Positions 3,694-62,887 of a stretch of DNA of 64,000 nucleotides are shown piece after piece. The translations under genes and the position numbers were made by a program. The notes beneath the pieces are model-generated. The model did no database searches. It saw nothing but the letters and a program-made list of their open reading frames with translations, and was not told where the DNA came from. Location: contig JAQVGG010000003.1 in the NCBI GenBank assembly GCA_028696815.1, positions 1-64,000 of the forward strand, given 5' to 3'. This DNA comes from Candidatus Altimarinota bacterium. GTDB lineage: Bacteria; Patescibacteriota; Gracilibacteria; BD1-5; UBA6164. The stretch's first letter is position 1; each line of letters opens with the position of its first letter.

Positions 3694-4756
3694 ATTGTGG
3701 TTTTTTGTAATAATACCCTCTTTTAATTCTTCTAATTGTTTCAATTAAATAATTAAACCAGTATTTAAATGTTAATGGTAGGTCTTGAGCATGTAGTAGA
3801 CTATAATCATATCAAGCAAATTTTCTTTTAAACTTTGTAACTCAAGCTATAGGGTGTTTTGGATTATCATCTGGAGAAACTCACCAAAAATTATAAATAT
3901 CGCATCAATCTGCCTTAGCTTTTTTAATTGCTTCCCACTGACATAAGTAGTTTGGAGAAAATTTATGTGATTTTATATCTGATGCAGCTATATAGTAAAC
4001 ACAAGTTTTTCAAAACTTAATTGTCATCAATATAGATTCTACAGATGAATCATATCTAGTTGATATAGTTGTTATATTATCAGTAAAAACACTGTAAAGA
4101 TTTTGTATAAATTCTCTACTAAATGGATGATATCATACTTTTTTTGAGTGTTCTTCATGCATAATTGAAAGTATTTCTATTTGTTCGGGAGTATTTCAAA
4201 TAAAAACTCCAACTCATTCTTTTATAGCTCTATTTATATAGTATCTATCCCCTTTTTTTATATTGTTTAGTAGTTCATCTTCACTAGGAGTTAGATTAAG
4301 TAAATGAGTATCTTCAGCGTGTTCATGCATAGGAGCGTTTATAAAGCCAAGAAACTCAAACTCTTGTTTATTTTGAAGTGTATTTTTTACTGCACTGTTA
4401 AATCTAATAAAATCAAATTTCTCTTTTTTTGCTAAATCTTTTAACTCAGGTAGTATACCTTTCAAAACTTCAAAAAAACCTTGTTTACTTTCCTCTTTTC
4501 ACTTTTTACTTTCTACTATCAATGGTCCATGTGGTACAAATAAATAAAAAGCTCTTTTTGCTCTTACTTTTATAATCTGCATAACTCAGATTAATTCATT
4601 TTCATTATATATTCCTAATCTTAGTATATCTTTTCATGCCAGGATTTGGAACTCTCACCATTCCCAAGATTGAAGGAAACTATAAAACTCAAAATCAGAC
4701 TCAGTTATAAAGTTATTCCAAGTGTCTTTATTTGTTACTATTTTTAGCTTATACAT
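3692..4756 (-). CDS. FemAB/MurM-family aminoacyltransferase
   Basis: 354 aa. Contains the FemAB (peptidoglycan interpeptide-bridge) pattern: FYSFLQSWEWGEFQ near residue 25, VPHGPLI, KGDRYYINRAIKEGVGV (about 170), then HKFSPNYLCQWEAIKKAKADG and YNFWGVSPD in the C-terminal GNAT lobe. These enzymes add amino acids from aminoacyl-tRNA to lipid II. It follows 4 bases after a DegT-type aminotransferase gene, suggesting a shared role in envelope or cell-wall modification. The stop lies inside the terminator stem. Confidence 0.85.
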
Positions 4757-53451: not shown

Positions 53452-53751
53452 ATGTGAAAAATAATTAAAGATCAATTTTTCTCAACAACTCAATTGAAAA
53501 CAAACACTAAAAGTGTATTAGACAAAACTAGAGATTTATGAGAAGTGTTTATAATGAATAATAATAAACCAAATGCTGTTTTAATGAGTATAGAAAAATA
53601 TAATGAAATAAACCAGTATTATATCCCTGAAGTTGAACCAGAAGAATGGGAATTAAAGGCTATTAAAGAGTATAAAAAAGAGCAAAAAGCTTGAAAACTA
53701 GAATATATTGAATGAGAAGATGTTTTTAAATTTTTAAATAATTTAAGATAA
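53452..53751 (+). CDS. Antitoxin, Phd/YefM family
   Basis: 99 aa. TTQLKTNTKSVLDKTRDLGEVFIMNNNKPNAVLMSIEKYNEI is the Phd/YefM DNA-binding fold. The acidic C-terminus (EVEPEEWELKAIKEYKKEQKAG) would bind and block the toxin. Ends in TAATG overlap with the toxin start, a classic translationally coupled pair. AT-rich promoter upstream likely autoregulated. Confidence 0.88.
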
Positions 53752-54011
53752 TGTATAAAATCTGATTATCAAAAAAAGTTTTAAAATTTTTAGAAAAACA
53801 TAAATGAGAAAAAATAATAAATTCATTTAATAATTCATTAAAAATTCTTCAAATAAATCCTTATAAAAATAATCTTGATTTTAAAAAGCTAAAATGAGTT
53901 TGAGAAAACTTTAGACTAAGAATTTGAAAATATAGGTTCATCTATGAAATAAATAATGATACGCTTATAATCTATTTTATAGATTGAGACACAAGATGAG
54001 ATATTTACTAA
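53751..54011 (+). CDS. RelE/ParE-family toxin
   Basis: 86 aa. SKKVLKFLEKHKGEKIINSF, INPYKNNLDFKKLKGVGENFRLRIGKYRFIYEINNDTLIIYFIDG, the RelE/ParE superfamily pattern with the basic strand RLRIGKYRFIYEI. RelE members cut mRNA on the ribosome; ParE poisons gyrase; cannot tell which. Starts 1 base inside the antitoxin stop. Confidence 0.88.
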
Positions 54012-54041
54012 AAAATGAAGTTTTAAAAACTTCATTTTTTA
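54010..54041. terminator. Bidirectional terminator
   Basis: Stem AAAAAATGAAGTTTT/AAAACTTCATTTTTT between the toxin and the DUF262-HNH gene. Confidence 0.9.
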
Positions 54042-55136
54042 CTTCCCACTCTTTACCCTGTTACAATTTTTACAAAGCATCTGACAGTTTTCAGTAATAG
54101 TTTTTCATCACTCGTGCCACGGAGTTATGTGGTCTGCTTCCATTTCAGATAGTTCGAAGTGTTTAGCTTTTTCAGGACAATTTTTGTTTGCACAAATCCC
54201 CTCTTGTCTTTCATAAGCTTCACGTTTTTGATTTGGAGTAAAAGCTCTGATATTTAGATATTTTTCTTTTCTAGTAAGTATATATTCATAAATACCAGAT
54301 TTTTTAGTTACATCTTCATCTTGCATAAGTTTTTTGATCTGAGATTCTAGTTTATTTGAGTCAAAGTTTGTGTCTTTAAACTGATTATAAAGAGGTCAAA
54401 AAGAAACTCATCTCATCTCCCTACGATAGTTTGGAAATATTACATTTATCCAATTTATTACATTTTGAAAATATAACCAAAGCTCATTTGCATTTGCTTC
54501 ATGTTGATGTGTTGCCATATAGTCTTCTATATGATTATCCGAGATCCAAGAAATAGCAGTTTCTAAATAATCCTGTCTAATAGGTGACCCGTTCATATAA
54601 TCACTTGCTATATTGTAAGCTGGACAGCTTGTTTTACTAAAATATCTTTTTGCATCAGTTAACCAAGTTCAAGTATAGATTGCATTCCTAAGCTCTTGAT
54701 CTGTAAGCTTTTCTCAAGCTATGTTTATAGTCTTGAACCAATCAAGTTTTTCTTTATCAGTTCATTCACAGAAATAAACCATTAGGCGATAATCAAGTAT
54801 TTGATCCTGTTCTGAGTCTTCTAGATTGTGAAAATACTGATAATCTATAGAAAATTTCCCGTCAATATATTCACAAATACTTATAGTTCTTTGTTGTCAG
54901 TCAAGAACTTCAAAAGTATCATCAGAGTTTTTTACCCAGTACATAACATTGAGTGGAAAGTTTTTTCTCACAGTTTCTATGACTGCATCTCTTTGTTTGT
55001 CTTTATAAACAAACTCTCTTTGGTATTTTGGACGAATATTTAGTTTTCCTTTATATCAAACAACTCATTCTTCATTGTTGTTTAGATATCAATTAGCAAT
55101 CTCTCTAATTGCTATTTCTTTAAGTTGGATTTTCAT
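54039..55136 (-). CDS. DUF262 (ParB-like) protein with C-terminal HNH nuclease
   Basis: 365 aa. N-terminal DUF262: LNIRPKYQREFVYKDKQRDAVI, FEVLDGQQRTISICEY (the DGQQR signature), INIAGEKLTDQELRNAIYTG. C-terminal HNH: AYERQEGICANKNCPEKAKHF, EADHITPWHEGG, CQMLCKNCNRVKS, with zinc Cys and catalytic His. Same layout as GmrSD-type restriction of modified DNA. Next to an EcoRI-type methyltransferase, so a restriction partner role is plausible. Confidence 0.87.
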
Positions 55137-55167
55137 AGTGTATATGGTTAGAAAATAATACCTCTCT

Positions 55168-55207
55168 CTTGAATTCTCTCCCCTTATCAGGGAAAAGAGG
55201 CTACAAG
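55168..55207. repeat. Direct repeat left of methyltransferase
   Basis: CTTGAATTCTCTCCCC...GGG.AAGAGGCTACA, about 80% identical to 56257-56296. Each copy is itself a small palindrome (CCC..GGG). Confidence 0.75.
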
Positions 55208-55208
55208 G

Positions 55209-56195
55209 TTAAAGTTTTTTGTTTTTGATAATTACACGAGCATAAGGGACTTCTACTATTCAGTCTTTTATCATATATAAATCTCAATCAACGGCAGCCC
55301 TTTTTTGAATTTCTTTTCTATATTTCTTATGTTCAGATGTATATGGTCTAACTCAAATTTCTATTCAAGAGCTTGAAATTCAAAGTCCTATTATCTCAAA
55401 TTGTTCTGGATTGTATTTGTCTAAAAATGTTATAGGAACTCATATATCACCTTTATAATCCATAGGGATATCTTTTACTTTATTAATATTTATAGCATCG
55501 AGGTTGTAGTACTTTTGGTATTCAGTCAGTTTGTATGTTTTGTATAGTATCAAGTCTTCATGTCTTTTTTGGATTTCAAGGTTTGTGTACCAAGCAATAT
55601 TTCAAAACTTTTTCATATTTCAATTTGCTTCTTTAAAATCTTTTGGAAAAGTATATCAAAGCCAAATTTTGTTTTCTTTAATAATTTTAAAAATTTCTTT
55701 ATAAGTTAATGCATTTTGATTTCAAATAATTAGAAACTTTTTATTATACTCCATAAGTTGTGCTATAAATTCTCTAAAAAGTGAAAATGGTGGATTTGTG
55801 ACAACGATATCAGACTCTTTAAGAAGCTCTATACATTCCTCACTTCTAAAGTCTCAGTTTTGTTTGAGTTTGATTTTTTTAGTGTCTTTTAAATCTATTT
55901 TTCAATCATGGTTTAGGTCAAGTCATCTAGTTATCTCAAGTTTATAACTCGGTTTTTCAATCTCAAAGTGGGTTGCTGTGAGTTTTTTTAGTCCTAAGTG
56001 TTCAAAGTTTAAAGCAAAGTACTTAAAGAAATTACTTTCTGCTGGATCATCACAATTACAAAAGATAGTTTTATCTTTGAAATGTATTTTGTAGTGTCCG
56101 AGTTCTTTTTCTATATCTGAGAGCTGAGTATAAAACTCATCATTTTTTGCTTTGTTTGCTTTCCTTAAGTTAGCATTTGAAGATTTTTTTGTCAT
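55209..56195 (-). CDS. EcoRI-family adenine-specific DNA methyltransferase
   Basis: 328 aa from ATG 56193-56195 (an in-frame start 11 codons upstream also exists). KNDEFYTQLSDIEKELGHYK, FKDKTIFCNCDDPAESNFFKYF, DIVVTNPPFSLFREFIAQL (motif IV), FLIIGNQNALTYKEIF, KIWLGYTFPKDF and a beta-rich end. Methylates adenine in dsDNA using SAM; many relatives protect against a cognate nuclease. Flanked on both sides by the same repeat, so it looks like an inserted cassette. Confidence 0.9.
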
Positions 56196-56256
56196 AAAAA
56201 AGCACTTACTTAATAAAGTAGGTGCCAAAAAGACTTAAACTTTTTTCATAACCCTA

Positions 56257-56296
56257 ACTTGAATTCTTTCCCTTAATACTAAGGGCAAGAGGCTAC
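56257..56296. repeat. Direct repeat right of methyltransferase
   Basis: ACTTGAATTCTTTCCC...AAGGGCAAGAGGCTACA, same orientation as 55168-55207. Confidence 0.75.
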
Positions 56297-56321
56297 ATTT
56301 AAAATAAAAAAGCTTAATAAA

Positions 56322-56449
56322 AATAGAATGTGTTTTAGCAAACAAAAAAGGGCAACTTATAGCTCCAAGATGTTCGCCAAAACACACTCTATTACTAAAA
56401 AACAGAAAAAGAGCTGGACAACTATAAGTTGCCCTTTTACATTTTTTAG
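56322..56449. ncRNA. Crossing inverted repeats: pseudoknot or two-state RNA/DNA element
   Basis: Four arms in the order A-B-A'-B'. A (56322-56343) pairs with A' (56372-56393) over 19 of 22 positions; B (56346-56362) pairs with B' (56422-56438) over 17 of 17. A third stem CTAAAAAA/TTTTTTAG (395-402/442-449) encloses B'. Because A encloses B but not B', the stems cross. This cannot be an ordinary terminator. It could be an RNA pseudoknot, an RNA with two alternative folds or a DNA site. Confidence 0.75.
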
Positions 56450-56520
56450 TAATATTTTGTGTGTTTTTGGCTTTTTAATTTTAGTGATTTTTTTTAATTT
56501 GTAAAATTTTGGGGAAAGAA

Positions 56521-56553
56521 AAATCCTACTCCTTCAGAGTAGGATTTTTTGAG
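56521..56553 (-). terminator. Terminator of the HEPN/KAP operon
   Basis: Stem AAAATCCTACTC/GAGTAGGATTTT. The HEPN gene's TAG stop is in the stem. Confidence 0.92.
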
Positions 56554-57212
56554 CTATTATCATATTCAAAACATAAACCCATAATTAATTCAATTAACAT
56601 AAGCATTCATCAAGTTCAAATTAAAGAAAACACACTAATTCATTCTTTAATATCATCAATATTTATTTCTAATTGAATCGCATGAGGTGGTTCATTTGTT
56701 ATCGTAAAATCAATTTTTAAAAAATTAATTCATTCTTTTTTATGATATTTTTTCCATCAATCAAAATCAGATTTTTTTAATTTATATTCTCTAGTTATTG
56801 AATGGGAAAATATATTTCTGAATAACTTTATTATAGAATATAATGCATTAAATTGATTTCATAATTTTGTACTACATAAATCATAGAAGTCTTTATCTCA
56901 TGCATTCTTTAAATCTAATAATTCATTAAATTTAGAAATTATATCTGTAAAAGACTGAATAAGTCATATTTCTGCAATTAATCAAAATCATCTTCATTTT
57001 GAATTTGATATTTCAATTGCATGGCATATATGATCATTTCTTAAAATATATTGATTTCATGTATCAAAATCAATTGAAAATGGAGGATTATTTTCTTTTA
57101 AGATTTTGGGATAATTTTTAAGTTGAGTTTTTGCTAATATTTCAAAAAATATTGATGTCTGCAAAAATGTATAACTATCTTTAATTAAAATGAAAGGTTT
57201 TGTGTTAGTCAT
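56526..57212 (-). CDS. HEPN-like protein
   Basis: 228 aa. Mostly helical; the central LFRNIFSHSITREYKLKKSD contains R-x4-H (RNIFSH), the catalytic pattern of HEPN RNases. Preceding helix SIIKLF and DIISKFNELLDLKNAGDKDF fit the bundle. A C-terminal hydrophobic helix (GMLMLIELIMGL) may anchor it. Pairs with the NTPase gene 24 bases upstream. HEPN toxins cut RNA in many defence and toxin systems. Family assignment by motif only. Confidence 0.65.
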
Positions 57213-57236
57213 AGTTTTATGTAAAATAGTTAAACT

Positions 57237-58535
57237 TTAATCTAAAAAATCATCTATAATTCAAACATAATTATTTTTTCGATTAAAATCATCAGTAAAA
57301 TATAAAACCCCATCTTTTGCTTTTCATGAAATATATTTGTAAGATACAAACTTTATTGGTACATTATATGAAAAAACTCTTGTTTTTATAACCTTTTTAT
57401 CTCAAGAATAATCTTCCTCATAAATATCAGTAAACCTTTGTCATCTATCAACTCTATGATTTTCTCTAAAAACACTATCAATCAAAGCAGAAAATATACT
57501 CTCACTTCATCAAACTTTTTTAGTCTTTCTCCATATATCAATATAAAAATCTCATGAGTTATGTTTAATATACTTTGCTGTTTCAAATACAATAGATAAC
57601 CTCCAATCAACTCATTCTCATTGTTTTTTTAATAAAGCAATATAATTAGAATTAGCATTTCTTAAAATATGTTTTAAAGTTCTCATTGTAATTTGGTCTG
57701 TAAATTCTTTAAAAATTCACTCTAAAAAAGTAATTACTTGTCATTTTAAATGATTGACACTATATATCTCATCTAAAAATAATTCTTTAACAAAATTATC
57801 TAATTTTACTTCTCTTAATGAATATTCATGAATATAATCTAAAGATTTTAGATAAGATAATTTAACTTCTTCTTTTTTATAATTTTCTTCTCAAATTGGA
57901 ACAACAACAATTATTCTTTTTTCAATTTCGTTAGTTTTTAAAAAATGGTTTAGAGTTTCTAGGAAAAATATTCAATTATCTCATGAACGGTCTATATCTT
58001 CAATAATCATATAAATATTCTCTTCTTTTAATTTATCAAAAATCTCAATTAAAATTTTCTGAAATTCATAAATTTTCGTAATTGGTTCTTTTTTGAATAT
58101 CTCAGAAAATTTATCTAAAAAATTAAAATCAAAATTTTCAGATATAGAGGATGTTATATCAGTTATTATATCTAACCATACAGATTTTGTAGATTTTCAT
58201 TCAATTTGCTTTTTGATTTTTTTTCAGTCTTTTTTTGTATAAGACTGTTTTACAATTTCTAATATAAAAGCTTCCCATAAATCTTTTCTGTCTGGATATT
58301 TCCAAGCATCAAATTCAAACCATTTTGAGTTTTCAGTATATTTATCCTTTATTTGATTAAGAAAAGTAGTTTTTCATGTTCAAAATTTTCAAATAAATCA
58401 AAATAAAGAAGAGAATTTAATACTATCTAACTTTGCAGAAAACCTTTCTATTTCAGAAGTTAAATCTAAAAGATTTTCTGATCTTGAATTCTCTTCAATT
58501 AATTCTGGATTCTTTATAAATCAGGTTGTATACAT
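57237..58535 (-). CDS. KAP-like P-loop NTPase
   Basis: 432 aa. Walker A GFIGKFGTGKTTFLNQI near residue 46, WFEFDAWKYPDRKDLWEAFI (typical KAP W-x-D/E-A-W), Walker B YMIIEDIDRSGDN near 170, RIIVVVPIGEENY (sensor). C-terminal region is a helical then beta tail (GVLYFTDDF). No transmembrane insertion seen. KAP NTPases occur in plasmid and phage exclusion systems. Middle gene of a three- or four-gene operon. Confidence 0.85.
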
Positions 58536-58546
58536 AATTATTATTT

Positions 58547-58765
58547 TTAAAATTTTAATTTTTTCAATTCTCAAATAACTTCACTTACTATATCTGATTT
58601 AATAGCTATAGGATCAATTCAAACTGATAATATTGCATTACAATTAAAATTTGAACATGTATATACAACTCAGGACCATTTCGTTCATCATTCATCAGTA
58701 GCAGGAATCTTTTTTATACTAATTGTTAGTATATAAGTATTACAATATGGGCATCTTTTAAACAT
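58547..58765 (-). CDS. Zinc-ribbon protein, 72 aa
   Basis: MFKRCPYCNTYILTI at the start and YTCSNFNCNAILSV later: CxxC and CxxxxC, a zinc ribbon. The middle (TDEGGTKWSGVV) needs TGA-Gly. 12 bases upstream of the KAP NTPase start on the same strand, hence probably part of the operon. Possible nucleic-acid recognition subunit (inference). Confidence 0.8.
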
Positions 58766-59319: not shown

Positions 59320-60576
59320 ATGAGTAAGACAAAATGAGAATATCTTAAAAAGGGGTTTAAAACTAAAGATATTTATTATTTTCAAGATGATGAAAAATGA
59401 ATAAATCAAATATCTAAAGAATCATATAAAAATAATGATATAGAAATTCATTATCCTATTTGATTTGAGTGATGAGAGAAATATTCTTCTATTAAGAAAA
59501 TTACATTTATTGGTTTTTCTTGAAAATTACCTGTTTAAGTTTTTAAAAATCCAAATAGATGATATTGATTTACTAAGCCTTTAAATCCATTTACATATTA
59601 TATTAATGATAAAGGTTTTAAAGAGGTAATAATAGAAAAGGATTCTAAGAATATCTATGATGAAAAAAATAAGGTTTTATATATAAATCAAAATACATTA
59701 GCTTTATTACAAAAGAACTTTTCATCATTTAACACAAAAAAACAAGCTGAGATAGAAGAGTTAAGAGATATAGTATTATACGATATTTTTCCAAGTAATT
59801 TTGATAAACCAGAAGTTAAATATTTGCCAGATGCTTTATCATTAACTCTTTCTAATTGGTGAAATTCTATAGATGAGTTTTCAGAAGCAGACAAAGAAGC
59901 TATACAAGATTTATTTGATAAGCTCTCTTTAACAACTGACTTTCTGTCTAAAGAATCTATAAAGCAAACTAAAGAAATAGTAGATAGTAAGTATTTACAA
60001 AAAACTATTAAAGATTTTGAAATATTATTATCTAGAACTACTGGATGAGATAGTTTAGAAAAATCTTGGCAGAAATTTTTAAAAGAAAATAGCTGGGTTT
60101 TCTCAACTTTATTTGCTCAACCTGTTATCTTTTTTAAAGATGAAGCCTATGTATGATGAAAAACAATTGATAATAAAGATTGAAAATTTTCAGATTTTTT
60201 AGTTAAAAATTCCTTGAGCAATAATGTTTCATTTGTAGAAATTAAAACTCATCTTACTAGCATTCTTAAAAATACTCCTTATAGATGAACAGATGTTTTT
60301 TCCGCTACTGAACACTTAACTTGAAGTATAACTCAAGTTATGAATCAAAGAGATAATTTACAAAAGGAGTTTTATATGGCTAAAGGAAAAAGTAAGGAGC
60401 ATTTTGAAGTTTTTAATTCTAAATGTGTAGTTTTGATATGAAAATTGGATTTATTATCTGATGAACAAAAATCTTCATTTGAGCTTTTTAGAAGTAATAG
60501 TAAAGATGTTGAAATAGTTACATTTGATGAATTATTAGTTAAAATGACTTCTTTACAAGATATACTTAATAAATAA
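59320..60576 (+). pseudogene. Shedu (DUF4263) nuclease, interrupted by TAA
   Basis: 419 codons with one TAA at 59536-59538 (codon 73) in KLPV-stop-VFKNPN. The C-terminal half carries the DUF4263 core: LEKSWQKFLKENSWVFSTLF, KFSDFLVKN (Asp) and SFVEIKTHLTSIL (Glu-x-Lys), then GSITQVMNQRDNL, as in SduA of Shedu anti-phage systems. No start codon soon after the stop, so the full protein is probably not made. The rest is intact, so loss looks recent; readthrough cannot be excluded. Confidence 0.8.
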
Positions 60577-61428: not shown

Positions 61429-61824
61429 TTAGAAAAGTATTTTCTTTAATTCTTTTTTTATTTGTTCAAAATCATCTTTATGGATCATTCAAATTTTTTC
61501 AATAAACCTTTTTTTATCTAAAATTCTAACTTGAGATAATGTAATATAAGACTGCTTATCAAAATATTTATCACTTAGCTTATGATAAAATTTATTGTCT
61601 TTTCACATAGTCGTCATACTGGCAACAAAAACAACACTTCATACAATTTTTATAACTAAAACTGGTCTTGTAAAAAGCTGTCATTTCCCATATGACTCAT
61701 ATCAAATATTTTTTCATAAATTTACATTCCAAACTTCTCTAGTATTTATATAAAAATCTCTATTTTCTCTATCATCAACTGAAATCTTAACTTCATTCCA
61801 ATTATCAAAATTTTGCCTTTGCAT
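61429..61824 (-). CDS. MazF/PemK-like toxin
   Basis: 131 aa. Core pattern: RPVLVIKIVGSVVFVASMTT, FYHKL, SYITLSQVRILDKKRFIEKI and a Leu/Lys-rich helical end, as in MazF/PemK endoribonucleases (PVLVI, Ser-Gln-x-Arg). No antitoxin gene is visible beside it, so it is either solitary or regulated in another way. Opposite strand to both cassettes. Confidence 0.82.
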
Positions 61825-62044: not shown

Positions 62045-62887
62045 ATGAAAAAAGAAGAAATTAAAAAACTAACTTGAGATTTTGAATCATTTGCTCAAGA
62101 AATGGATAATTGAATAGAGTTTTGGTTTGCAAGAGACTTGCAATACCTTTTATGATATAAAGAATGGAGAAATTTTCTAAAAATTATTATAAAAGCAAAA
62201 ATATCTCTAGAAACTTCCTGAGAAGATATTTCAGACCATTTTGTTGAAGTCAACAAAATGGTAAAGTTATGACTATGAAGCCAAAGAGAAATAGATGATA
62301 TAATGCTTACAAGAAAAGCATGTTATCTTATAGCAATGAATTGAGATACATCAAAATCTGAAATTGCTTTTGCGCAACAATACTTTGTATTACAAACAAG
62401 AAAAGCTGAAATTATAGAACAAAGGTTATTAGAAAACGAAAGAGTTTTGGCAAGAAATAAATTAGCAAAGACAGAGAAAGAATTATCACAAGTTATATAT
62501 GAACAAACTTGAAGTGATAGAAATTTTTGAATAATTAGAAGCAAATGAGATAAAGCTTTGTTTTGAAAAAATACAGAAGAAATGAAAAATAAATGGTGGA
62601 TACTTAGTAGTAAACCTCTTGCTGATTTTATGCCAACAATTCTTCTAAAAGCTAAAGATTTTGCTACAGAGATTACTATTCACAATGCCAAGTCTAAAAA
62701 AATGGCTACTGAAAACGAAATTTCAAATGAACATATTACTAATAATAGAAGTGTTAGAAAAACATTAATTGAAAGATGAATTACCCCAGAAAACTTAAGA
62801 CCTGAAGAAGATTTAAAAAAAGTTGAGAGAAAAATGAATTCTGAAGCTAAAAAGTGATTAAAAAATCATAAATGATTTTGAAAATAA
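62045..62887 (+). CDS. dinD: DinD-like DNA damage-inducible protein
   Basis: 280 aa. FESFAQEMDNGIEFWFARDLQYLLGYKEWRNF, ISDHFVEVNKMVKLG, LTRKACYLIAMNGDTSKSEIAFAQQYFVLQTRKAEII and the C-terminal ERGITPENLRPEEDLKKVERK are the DinD pattern. E. coli DinD is SOS-induced and inhibits RecA filament action. Full length, 14 TGA-Gly. No LexA box recognised upstream. Confidence 0.92.

Follow-up and report, generated by a model that had tools for sequence, protein, structure and literature searches.

A family of leaders with alternative helices in Candidatus Gracilibacteria, possibly transcription attenuators, and its copy ahead of an EcoRI-type restriction-modification operon

The window, meaning the whole 64,000-nucleotide stretch of contig JAQVGG010000003.1 that was analysed, contains a dense neighbourhood of defence genes between 53452 and 62887. 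The source genome uses translation table 25 (TGA = glycine), and the frames around the element described here are open only under this code. Read in this way, and with Pfam and PADLOC assignments, the neighbourhood contains the following features:

53452-54011, Phd/YefM antitoxin and a short partner ORF
54039-56195, restriction-modification pair
54039-55136, minus strand, GmrSD_N/HNH protein, REase_II in PADLOC, the second gene behind the leader (Pfam and PADLOC)
55209-56195, minus strand, EcoRI-type adenine DNA methyltransferase, the gene directly behind the leader (Pfam PF13651, E=1e-123; table 25)
56195-56193, minus strand, ATG start codon of the EcoRI-type methyltransferase
From 56471, minus strand, the element, counted from the first base of its first helix
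56505 to 56193, minus strand, the whole functional unit, from promoter to start codon
56526-57212, minus strand, HEPN-like gene
56526-58574, HEPN-like/KAP pair
59824-60576, Shedu SduA
61429-61824, PemK/MazF-like toxin
62045-62887, Bro-N protein with a PADLOC PDC-S13 match

The element lies in an intergenic region of 298 nt. On the minus strand the order is the HEPN-like gene, a terminator-like hairpin, a promoter-like sequence, the element, a hairpin with six Ts, and the ATG of the methyltransferase. Because promoter, element, methyltransferase and REase_II follow each other in this order, the element belongs to a restriction-modification operon as its 5' leader and is no appendage of the HEPN/KAP genes; the GmrSD_N/HNH gene is probably part of the same operon as the methyltransferase. 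The functional unit is larger than the interval 56322-56449, in which the original prediction had placed a set of crossing inverted repeats. A perfect hairpin (13 bp, 5-nt loop) flanked by A and T runs lies at the 3' end of the HEPN-like gene (56519-56549) and is, by its sequence, likely a bidirectional terminator that parts this gene from the leader. The parts of the leader, all on the minus strand, are:

56478-56505, promoter, with -35 TTTACA (56505-56500), a 16-nt spacer and -10 TAAAAT (56483-56478), from a consensus scan and the family logo
56459-56471, A1, the 5' arm of helix P1, GCCAAAAACACAC, with its predicted start at transcript +1, from P1 covariation
56442-56454, 5' arm of P2, TATTACTAAAAAA, from P2 cross-pairing
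56422-56438, B, the 5' arm shared by the local hairpin P3 and the crossing helix B:B', from covariation
56416-56422, 3' arm of P3, GTTGTCC, a local competitor of B' for B, from folding and sequence
56390-56402, 3' arm of P2, TTTTTTAGTAATA, from P2 cross-pairing
56371-56392, A', partner of A1 (P1, at 56376-56387) or of A2, from covariation with both
56346-56362, B', the 3' arm of the perfect 17-bp crossing helix, from the repeat and covariation
56344-56349, a run of six Us that closes B', terminator- or pause-like
56323-56344, A2, the rival of A1 for A', from cross-pairing and compensatory change
56224-56232, A'', CTTTTTGGC, a second possible partner of A1, which overlaps the first 3 nt of T3, from A1:A'' cross-pairing
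56196-56226, T3, a terminator-like hairpin with six Us that abuts the start codon, from a hairpin and U-run rule

The repeats were largely as first described. The imperfect stem reported as 19/22 was recovered (56322-56344 with 56371-56393, 87% complementary across 23 nt), as was the perfect 17-bp stem (56346-56362 with 56422-56438), and the two cross one another. A third inverted repeat is also present (56379-56409 with 56435-56465), but it does not chiefly compete with the 17-bp stem, as had been thought. It competes mainly with the imperfect stem, because the arm near 56379-56393 is common to both, and merely touches the other. A perfect inverted repeat of 17 bp exceeds the maximum of 12 found in 1000 dinucleotide shuffles of 56322-56449, and the maximum of 14 in 500 shuffles of the whole intergenic region. 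Pseudoknot-free folds were far more stable than those of shuffles for the minus strand (z = -7.97) and less extreme for the plus strand (z = -4.53). A plus-strand reading was rejected, having the weaker fold and no gene or promoter arrangement.

By BLASTN, the element is present in a single copy in its own genome and in many of 48 genomes of the same family. A covariance model built from 18 copies and searched against these 48 genomes found ca. 60 copies in 28 of them, and a second model, built from 60 copies, found ca. 95 copies in 44 of 77 genomes of the order; the carriers among the relatives are named Candidatus Gracilibacteria. Elsewhere in the class (ca. 276 other genomes) there was a single weaker copy (G107), which is a weak negative result because few candidates per genome were scored. 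The sole match in a genome outside the Gracilibacteria, Yersinia L111, was taken as chance. Neither the window nor nine loci from diverse members matched an Rfam 15 family above the gathering score, and at relaxed thresholds the best sub-threshold matches were microRNA and unrelated sRNA models, with no credible family. A T-box was excluded solely by this absence of an Rfam match. A literature search of open-licence papers found no description of a structured RNA or riboswitch for Gracilibacteria or Patescibacteria. The family, host group, target set and layout are new in the sense that they were not found in Rfam 15 or in the literature searched; the general kind, a cis-acting leader with alternative helices, is already known (e.g. 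PMC9756952).

The copies have a constant place in front of genes. Ninety of the 95 precede an ORF of at least 60 aa on the same strand, with a median of 46.5 nt from A2 to the ORF; the gap from A2 to the ATG in the window copy is longer (133 nt). Between its A2 and A'' the window copy also carries additional sequence rich in hairpins (56229-56320, minus strand), which most relatives lack. A logo of the 45 nt upstream of 60 copies contained a -35 box TTG(A/C)A and a -10 box TAnAnT at a fixed distance from +1, and from this sigma-70-like promoter the transcript is expected to begin at the first G of P1. The leader thus lies where an attenuator would, after a promoter and before the start codon of a same-strand gene.

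Conservation of the leader resides in its pairing. A cross-pairing test was chosen because alignment can create or hide covariation: the best stem formed by the two arms of one copy was compared, with equal search freedom, to the stems formed with the arms of other copies. A first RNAalifold run had given B:B' only, with P1 and P2 misaligned by MAFFT. The cross-pairing scores were z = 22.7 for A1:A' (P1), 15.6 for B:B', 13.6 for A':A2 and 15.1 for P2, against -1.4 to 1.3 for control arm combinations; A1:A'', over a wide first window, had z = 3.5. In 29 copies from two families outside both models, the scores were 16.8 for A1:A', 12.9 for B:B', 8.7 for A':A2 and 11.1 for P2. This independent set was less clean, because A1:A2, a control, reached 5.2 and A2:A'' 2.6 (the other controls were 0.6 and 2.5).

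On the model alignment of 60 sequences, with the pseudoknot written out, 94.8% of the cells of P1 and B:B' were paired and 23 of their 26 pairs had compensatory changes, a number that none of 500 shuffles attained. Sliding one side by 1-3 columns lowered the pairing of these two helices to 39-54%. B:B' taken separately had 98% of cells paired and compensatory changes in all 14 pairs, and A':A2 had compensatory changes in 11 of 15. Whole arms of B:B' are swapped between copies (GGGCAACTTA, GGAGGAAATTA, GGGGGATTTAATCC, GGGTGATTTTATCACC and others) with complementarity kept, and B, A1 and A2 are all replaced wholesale from copy to copy. By comparison of sequences, then, compensatory change supports five pairings: A1:A', P2, B:B', A':A2 and, in about half of the copies, A1:A''. 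B:B' crosses P1, and A':A2 competes with it. The original prediction had listed a two-state leader among the possible roles and had named a lack of conservation or covariation in relatives as evidence against the element; covariation in the relatives is strong, and compensatory change in mutually exclusive and crossing helices, ahead of start codons, supports that role. In one group of leaders with GGAGG arms (L086, L092, L093, L095, L097, L099, L101-L103), B is AAGGAGGAAA and B' is TTTCCTCCTTTTT, which resemble a Shine-Dalgarno/anti-Shine-Dalgarno pair; the genes behind these leaders have no obvious Shine-Dalgarno site.

Two places in the leader resemble outputs. The first is the U-run after B', which has four to seven Us in 97% of 95 copies under a rule of at least four; these runs remain even where there is no A-run to pair with. 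The second is T3, which by a strict rule (a hairpin opening with GGC, AGC or GGT, followed by a T-run and ending a few nt before the ATG) was found in 45 of 95 copies, including all 15 EcoRI-type leaders counted. T3 stems are A+U-rich. A stable hairpin with a T-run stood directly before the start codon in 39% of the genes with the element, an underestimate as several start codons were misassigned, compared to 11% of all ORFs at the same loci, a figure that includes the element-linked genes. A U-run after A2, which might have been a third terminator, was not conserved when inspected by eye.

The 8-12 nt leading into T3, A'', are complementary to A1 (cross-pairing z = 8.9, compared to 0.1 for the adjacent 16 nt), and matched pairs of A1 and A'' include GCCAAAAT with ATTTTGGC, GCTAAAAT with ATTTTAGC, and CCGAGAT with ATCTCGG. 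A'' ends inside the first nucleotides of the T3 hairpin, and A1:A'' and a full T3 are therefore mutually exclusive. The strength of A':A2 pairing was 36.1 in copies with T3 and 24.2 in copies without (p=6e-9), while that of B:B' was alike in both (p=0.24). Because A':A2 strength follows T3 and B:B' strength does not, A2, A'' and T3 seem to form a single module joined onto a P1-P2-P3 core that has B:B' and a U-run.

Predicted energies are consistent with an exchange between these helices, as equilibrium, pseudoknot-free figures that do not settle kinetics. In pseudoknot-free ensembles of transcripts ending at the U-run, P1 outweighs B:B' in 94% of copies; once A2 is present, A':A2 outweighs P1 in 63% of copies. 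A natural order of events in such a model would be P1 first and exchange after. The unconstrained minimum free energy structure of the window leader (-86.8 kcal/mol) contains A1:A'', P2/P3 and A':A2, with the base of T3 disrupted, and matches the on-state proposed below; a structure with P1 and T3 has -76.0 kcal/mol. This suggests that the window copy would be read through by default unless something stabilised P1.

The reading preferred here, with a probability of about 0.64, is that the element acts in cis, as an RNA leader whose strand exchange attenuates transcription and so controls the gene behind it. The transcript would begin at A1, and the nascent RNA would fold first into P1 (A1:A'), P2 and P3. 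As B' emerged it could capture B out of P3, so that B:B' and its U-run would form an early terminator or a pause. If the polymerase continued, A2 would be made and could take A' from A1; the freed A1 could then pair with A'', removing the closing G-C pairs of T3, and the gene would be transcribed (on). If P1 held, A1 would stay bound, T3 would form, and transcription would stop ahead of the start codon (off). T3 is absent by the strict rule in about half of the copies, and therefore the A'' step is not usable by all; those lacking T3 would depend on the B:B'/U-run step by itself. The B:B' loop is long (ca. 60 nt) and B:B' loses to P1-P2-P3 in pseudoknot-free folding, properties that are poor for a classical intrinsic terminator, and B:B' may instead be a tertiary contact. 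The window copy would set expression of the EcoRI-type methyltransferase and probably also of its restriction enzyme.

The genes behind the leaders form a defined but mixed set. Restriction-modification genes are about a third of the targets: methyltransferases of the EcoRI type (16 by genome search), the C5 type (3) and the N6/N4 type (8), and restriction genes for ResIII, Mrr, HNH and Tsp45I-type proteins. Other targets encode secreted staphylococcal-type nucleases with an Excalibur domain (2), subtilases with TPR repeats, pilins with N-terminal methylation, zinc-ribbon/TM2 proteins, and several secreted or membrane proteins with no Pfam match. A shared theme of DNA uptake and marking is no more than suggestive. 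Of the 20 EcoRI-type methyltransferase genes in the order with the 5' region present, 19 have the leader. Sixteen of these leaders were called by the genome search and three by a local search (E 2e-5 to 1e-3), the latter showing the helices by eye; neither search found a leader at the remaining gene, G046:C1. The set of 20 leaves out G030:C489, a contig without TGA codons that is probably foreign. At G030:C489 and G030:C273, genes for an EcoRI-type methyltransferase and for C5 methyltransferases read with no TGA codon in a genome that is otherwise kin to those using table 25, and these are probably contaminating contigs. A general methyltransferase leader was considered and rejected, since only 3 of ca. 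45 C5 methyltransferase genes found carry one.

A tentative extension, possible but doubtful, is that the family is a new class of regulatory RNA with no aptamer. Strands would be exchanged in a cascade that has B:B' and T3 as its two possible U-run outputs and that serves the order as a common control of genes for restriction-modification, pilins, secreted nucleases and surface proteins, perhaps in response to polymerase pausing, the supply of nucleotides or a shared trans-acting factor. For the preferred reading, too, the genes behind the leader are so varied that no one signal stands out. This variety also bears on a metabolite or ion riboswitch, in which the same switch would be set by a ligand bound to P1-P2-P3, for example S-adenosylmethionine or a nucleotide. 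The position, size and mutually exclusive helices all fit a riboswitch, and many targets are DNA methyltransferases that use S-adenosylmethionine; however, pilins, nucleases, proteases and zinc-ribbon proteins are among the targets too, conservation follows the pairing with no conserved unpaired core seen by eye in alignment A4 and the f3 copies, and there is no Rfam match, which together make a riboswitch unlikely. A leader acting on translation or mRNA stability, with hairpins that sequester the start region or shield the 5' end and no termination, is improbable as well. P1 begins at +1 like 5'-protecting stems, and T3 lies right against the start codon and is missing from many copies, all as such a leader might have it, but the U-runs after B' and T3 are terminator signatures that it would not need, and they are kept where no A-run is available for pairing.

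The two remaining roles raised by the original prediction fared poorly. That the element is an independent small RNA, or an RNA antitoxin, serving the HEPN/KAP genes was suggested by the adjoining HEPN-like gene, whose translation has an RNxxxH-type motif. By tblastn, neither HEPN nor KAP had a match in the other element-bearing loci fetched, so that the supposed linkage was absent there. In the window, the element is downstream of the HEPN gene, beyond the terminator-like hairpin of that gene, and upstream of and linked with the methyltransferase; elsewhere it faces and abuts the start codons of other genes. It also lacks the tandem repeats of type III antitoxins. Linkage thus largely refutes this role, which is very unlikely. 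A DNA-level element – a miniature transposon, or a recombination or integration site, akin to the mobile-element hairpin first proposed – would account for dispersed inverted repeats, for several copies per genome in some relatives, and for a core that varies, as though it had been swapped, where the gene starts are otherwise alike. Transposable elements such as MITEs have dispersed copies independent of gene context; the copies here have a fixed position and orientation between promoter and start codon, the source genome has one, and two exact patterns matched no viral contig, which also fails to indicate a phage origin. A role at the DNA level is just as improbable as the antitoxin.

Terminator-type riboswitch platforms such as B. 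subtilis yxjA (PMC9756952) and pbuE (PMC7707468) switch by cotranscriptional strand exchange. As in these, the Gracilibacteria leader has a strand common to a 5' helix and an antiterminator or terminator, would decide during transcription, and has a predicted intrinsic terminator ahead of the gene. It differs in having no recognisable aptamer, in being kept by pairing rather than sequence, in the two exclusive partners each of A' and A1, and in a crossing helix with its own U-run. In the amino-acid and pyrimidine attenuators (trp, pyrBI), alternative leader hairpins and U-runs decide read-through. The present leader shares these hairpins and U-runs; unlike trp and pyrBI it has no recognised leader peptide, has P1 at +1, and is common to many unrelated genes. 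The put RNAs and other processive antiterminator RNAs are structured RNAs that lie at the very start of the transcript with terminators downstream of them, an arrangement much like the one here, but no Rfam relation was found, and each copy of the leader has a strand that could pair with the base of the terminator-like hairpin in that copy. Type III toxin-antitoxin systems of the ToxI class consist of a pseudoknotted RNA with tandem repeats and a ToxN-like toxin gene behind it. The leader is likewise a predicted pseudoknotted RNA in a defence neighbourhood, with varied genes behind it instead of tandem repeats followed by a ToxN-like gene.

Gene regulation is poorly understood in the ultra-small Gracilibacteria and in the rest of the Patescibacteria, and a family with many copies in one order and strong covariation offers a regulator that is directly testable, together with a defined set of target genes. 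It would tie RNA-level control to the expression of DNA methyltransferases, the timing of which matters because restriction must not precede modification. Its conservation appears to be carried by switching strands instead of an aptamer.

The leaders at L051, L095 and L102 precede the same gene, with near-identical promoters (0.89-0.98) and similar T3 regions (0.82-0.95). The leader core of L051 is of another class, with GGGCAACTTA versus GGAGGAAATTA-type arms and a core identity of 0.68-0.71. From these identities, the core appears to change faster than both flanks or to have been exchanged. At L069, a partial copy (4625-4749) has A', B', the U-run and A2 with no recognisable A1, P2 or B; it precedes a zinc-ribbon gene and lies ca. 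460 nt downstream of an intact copy.
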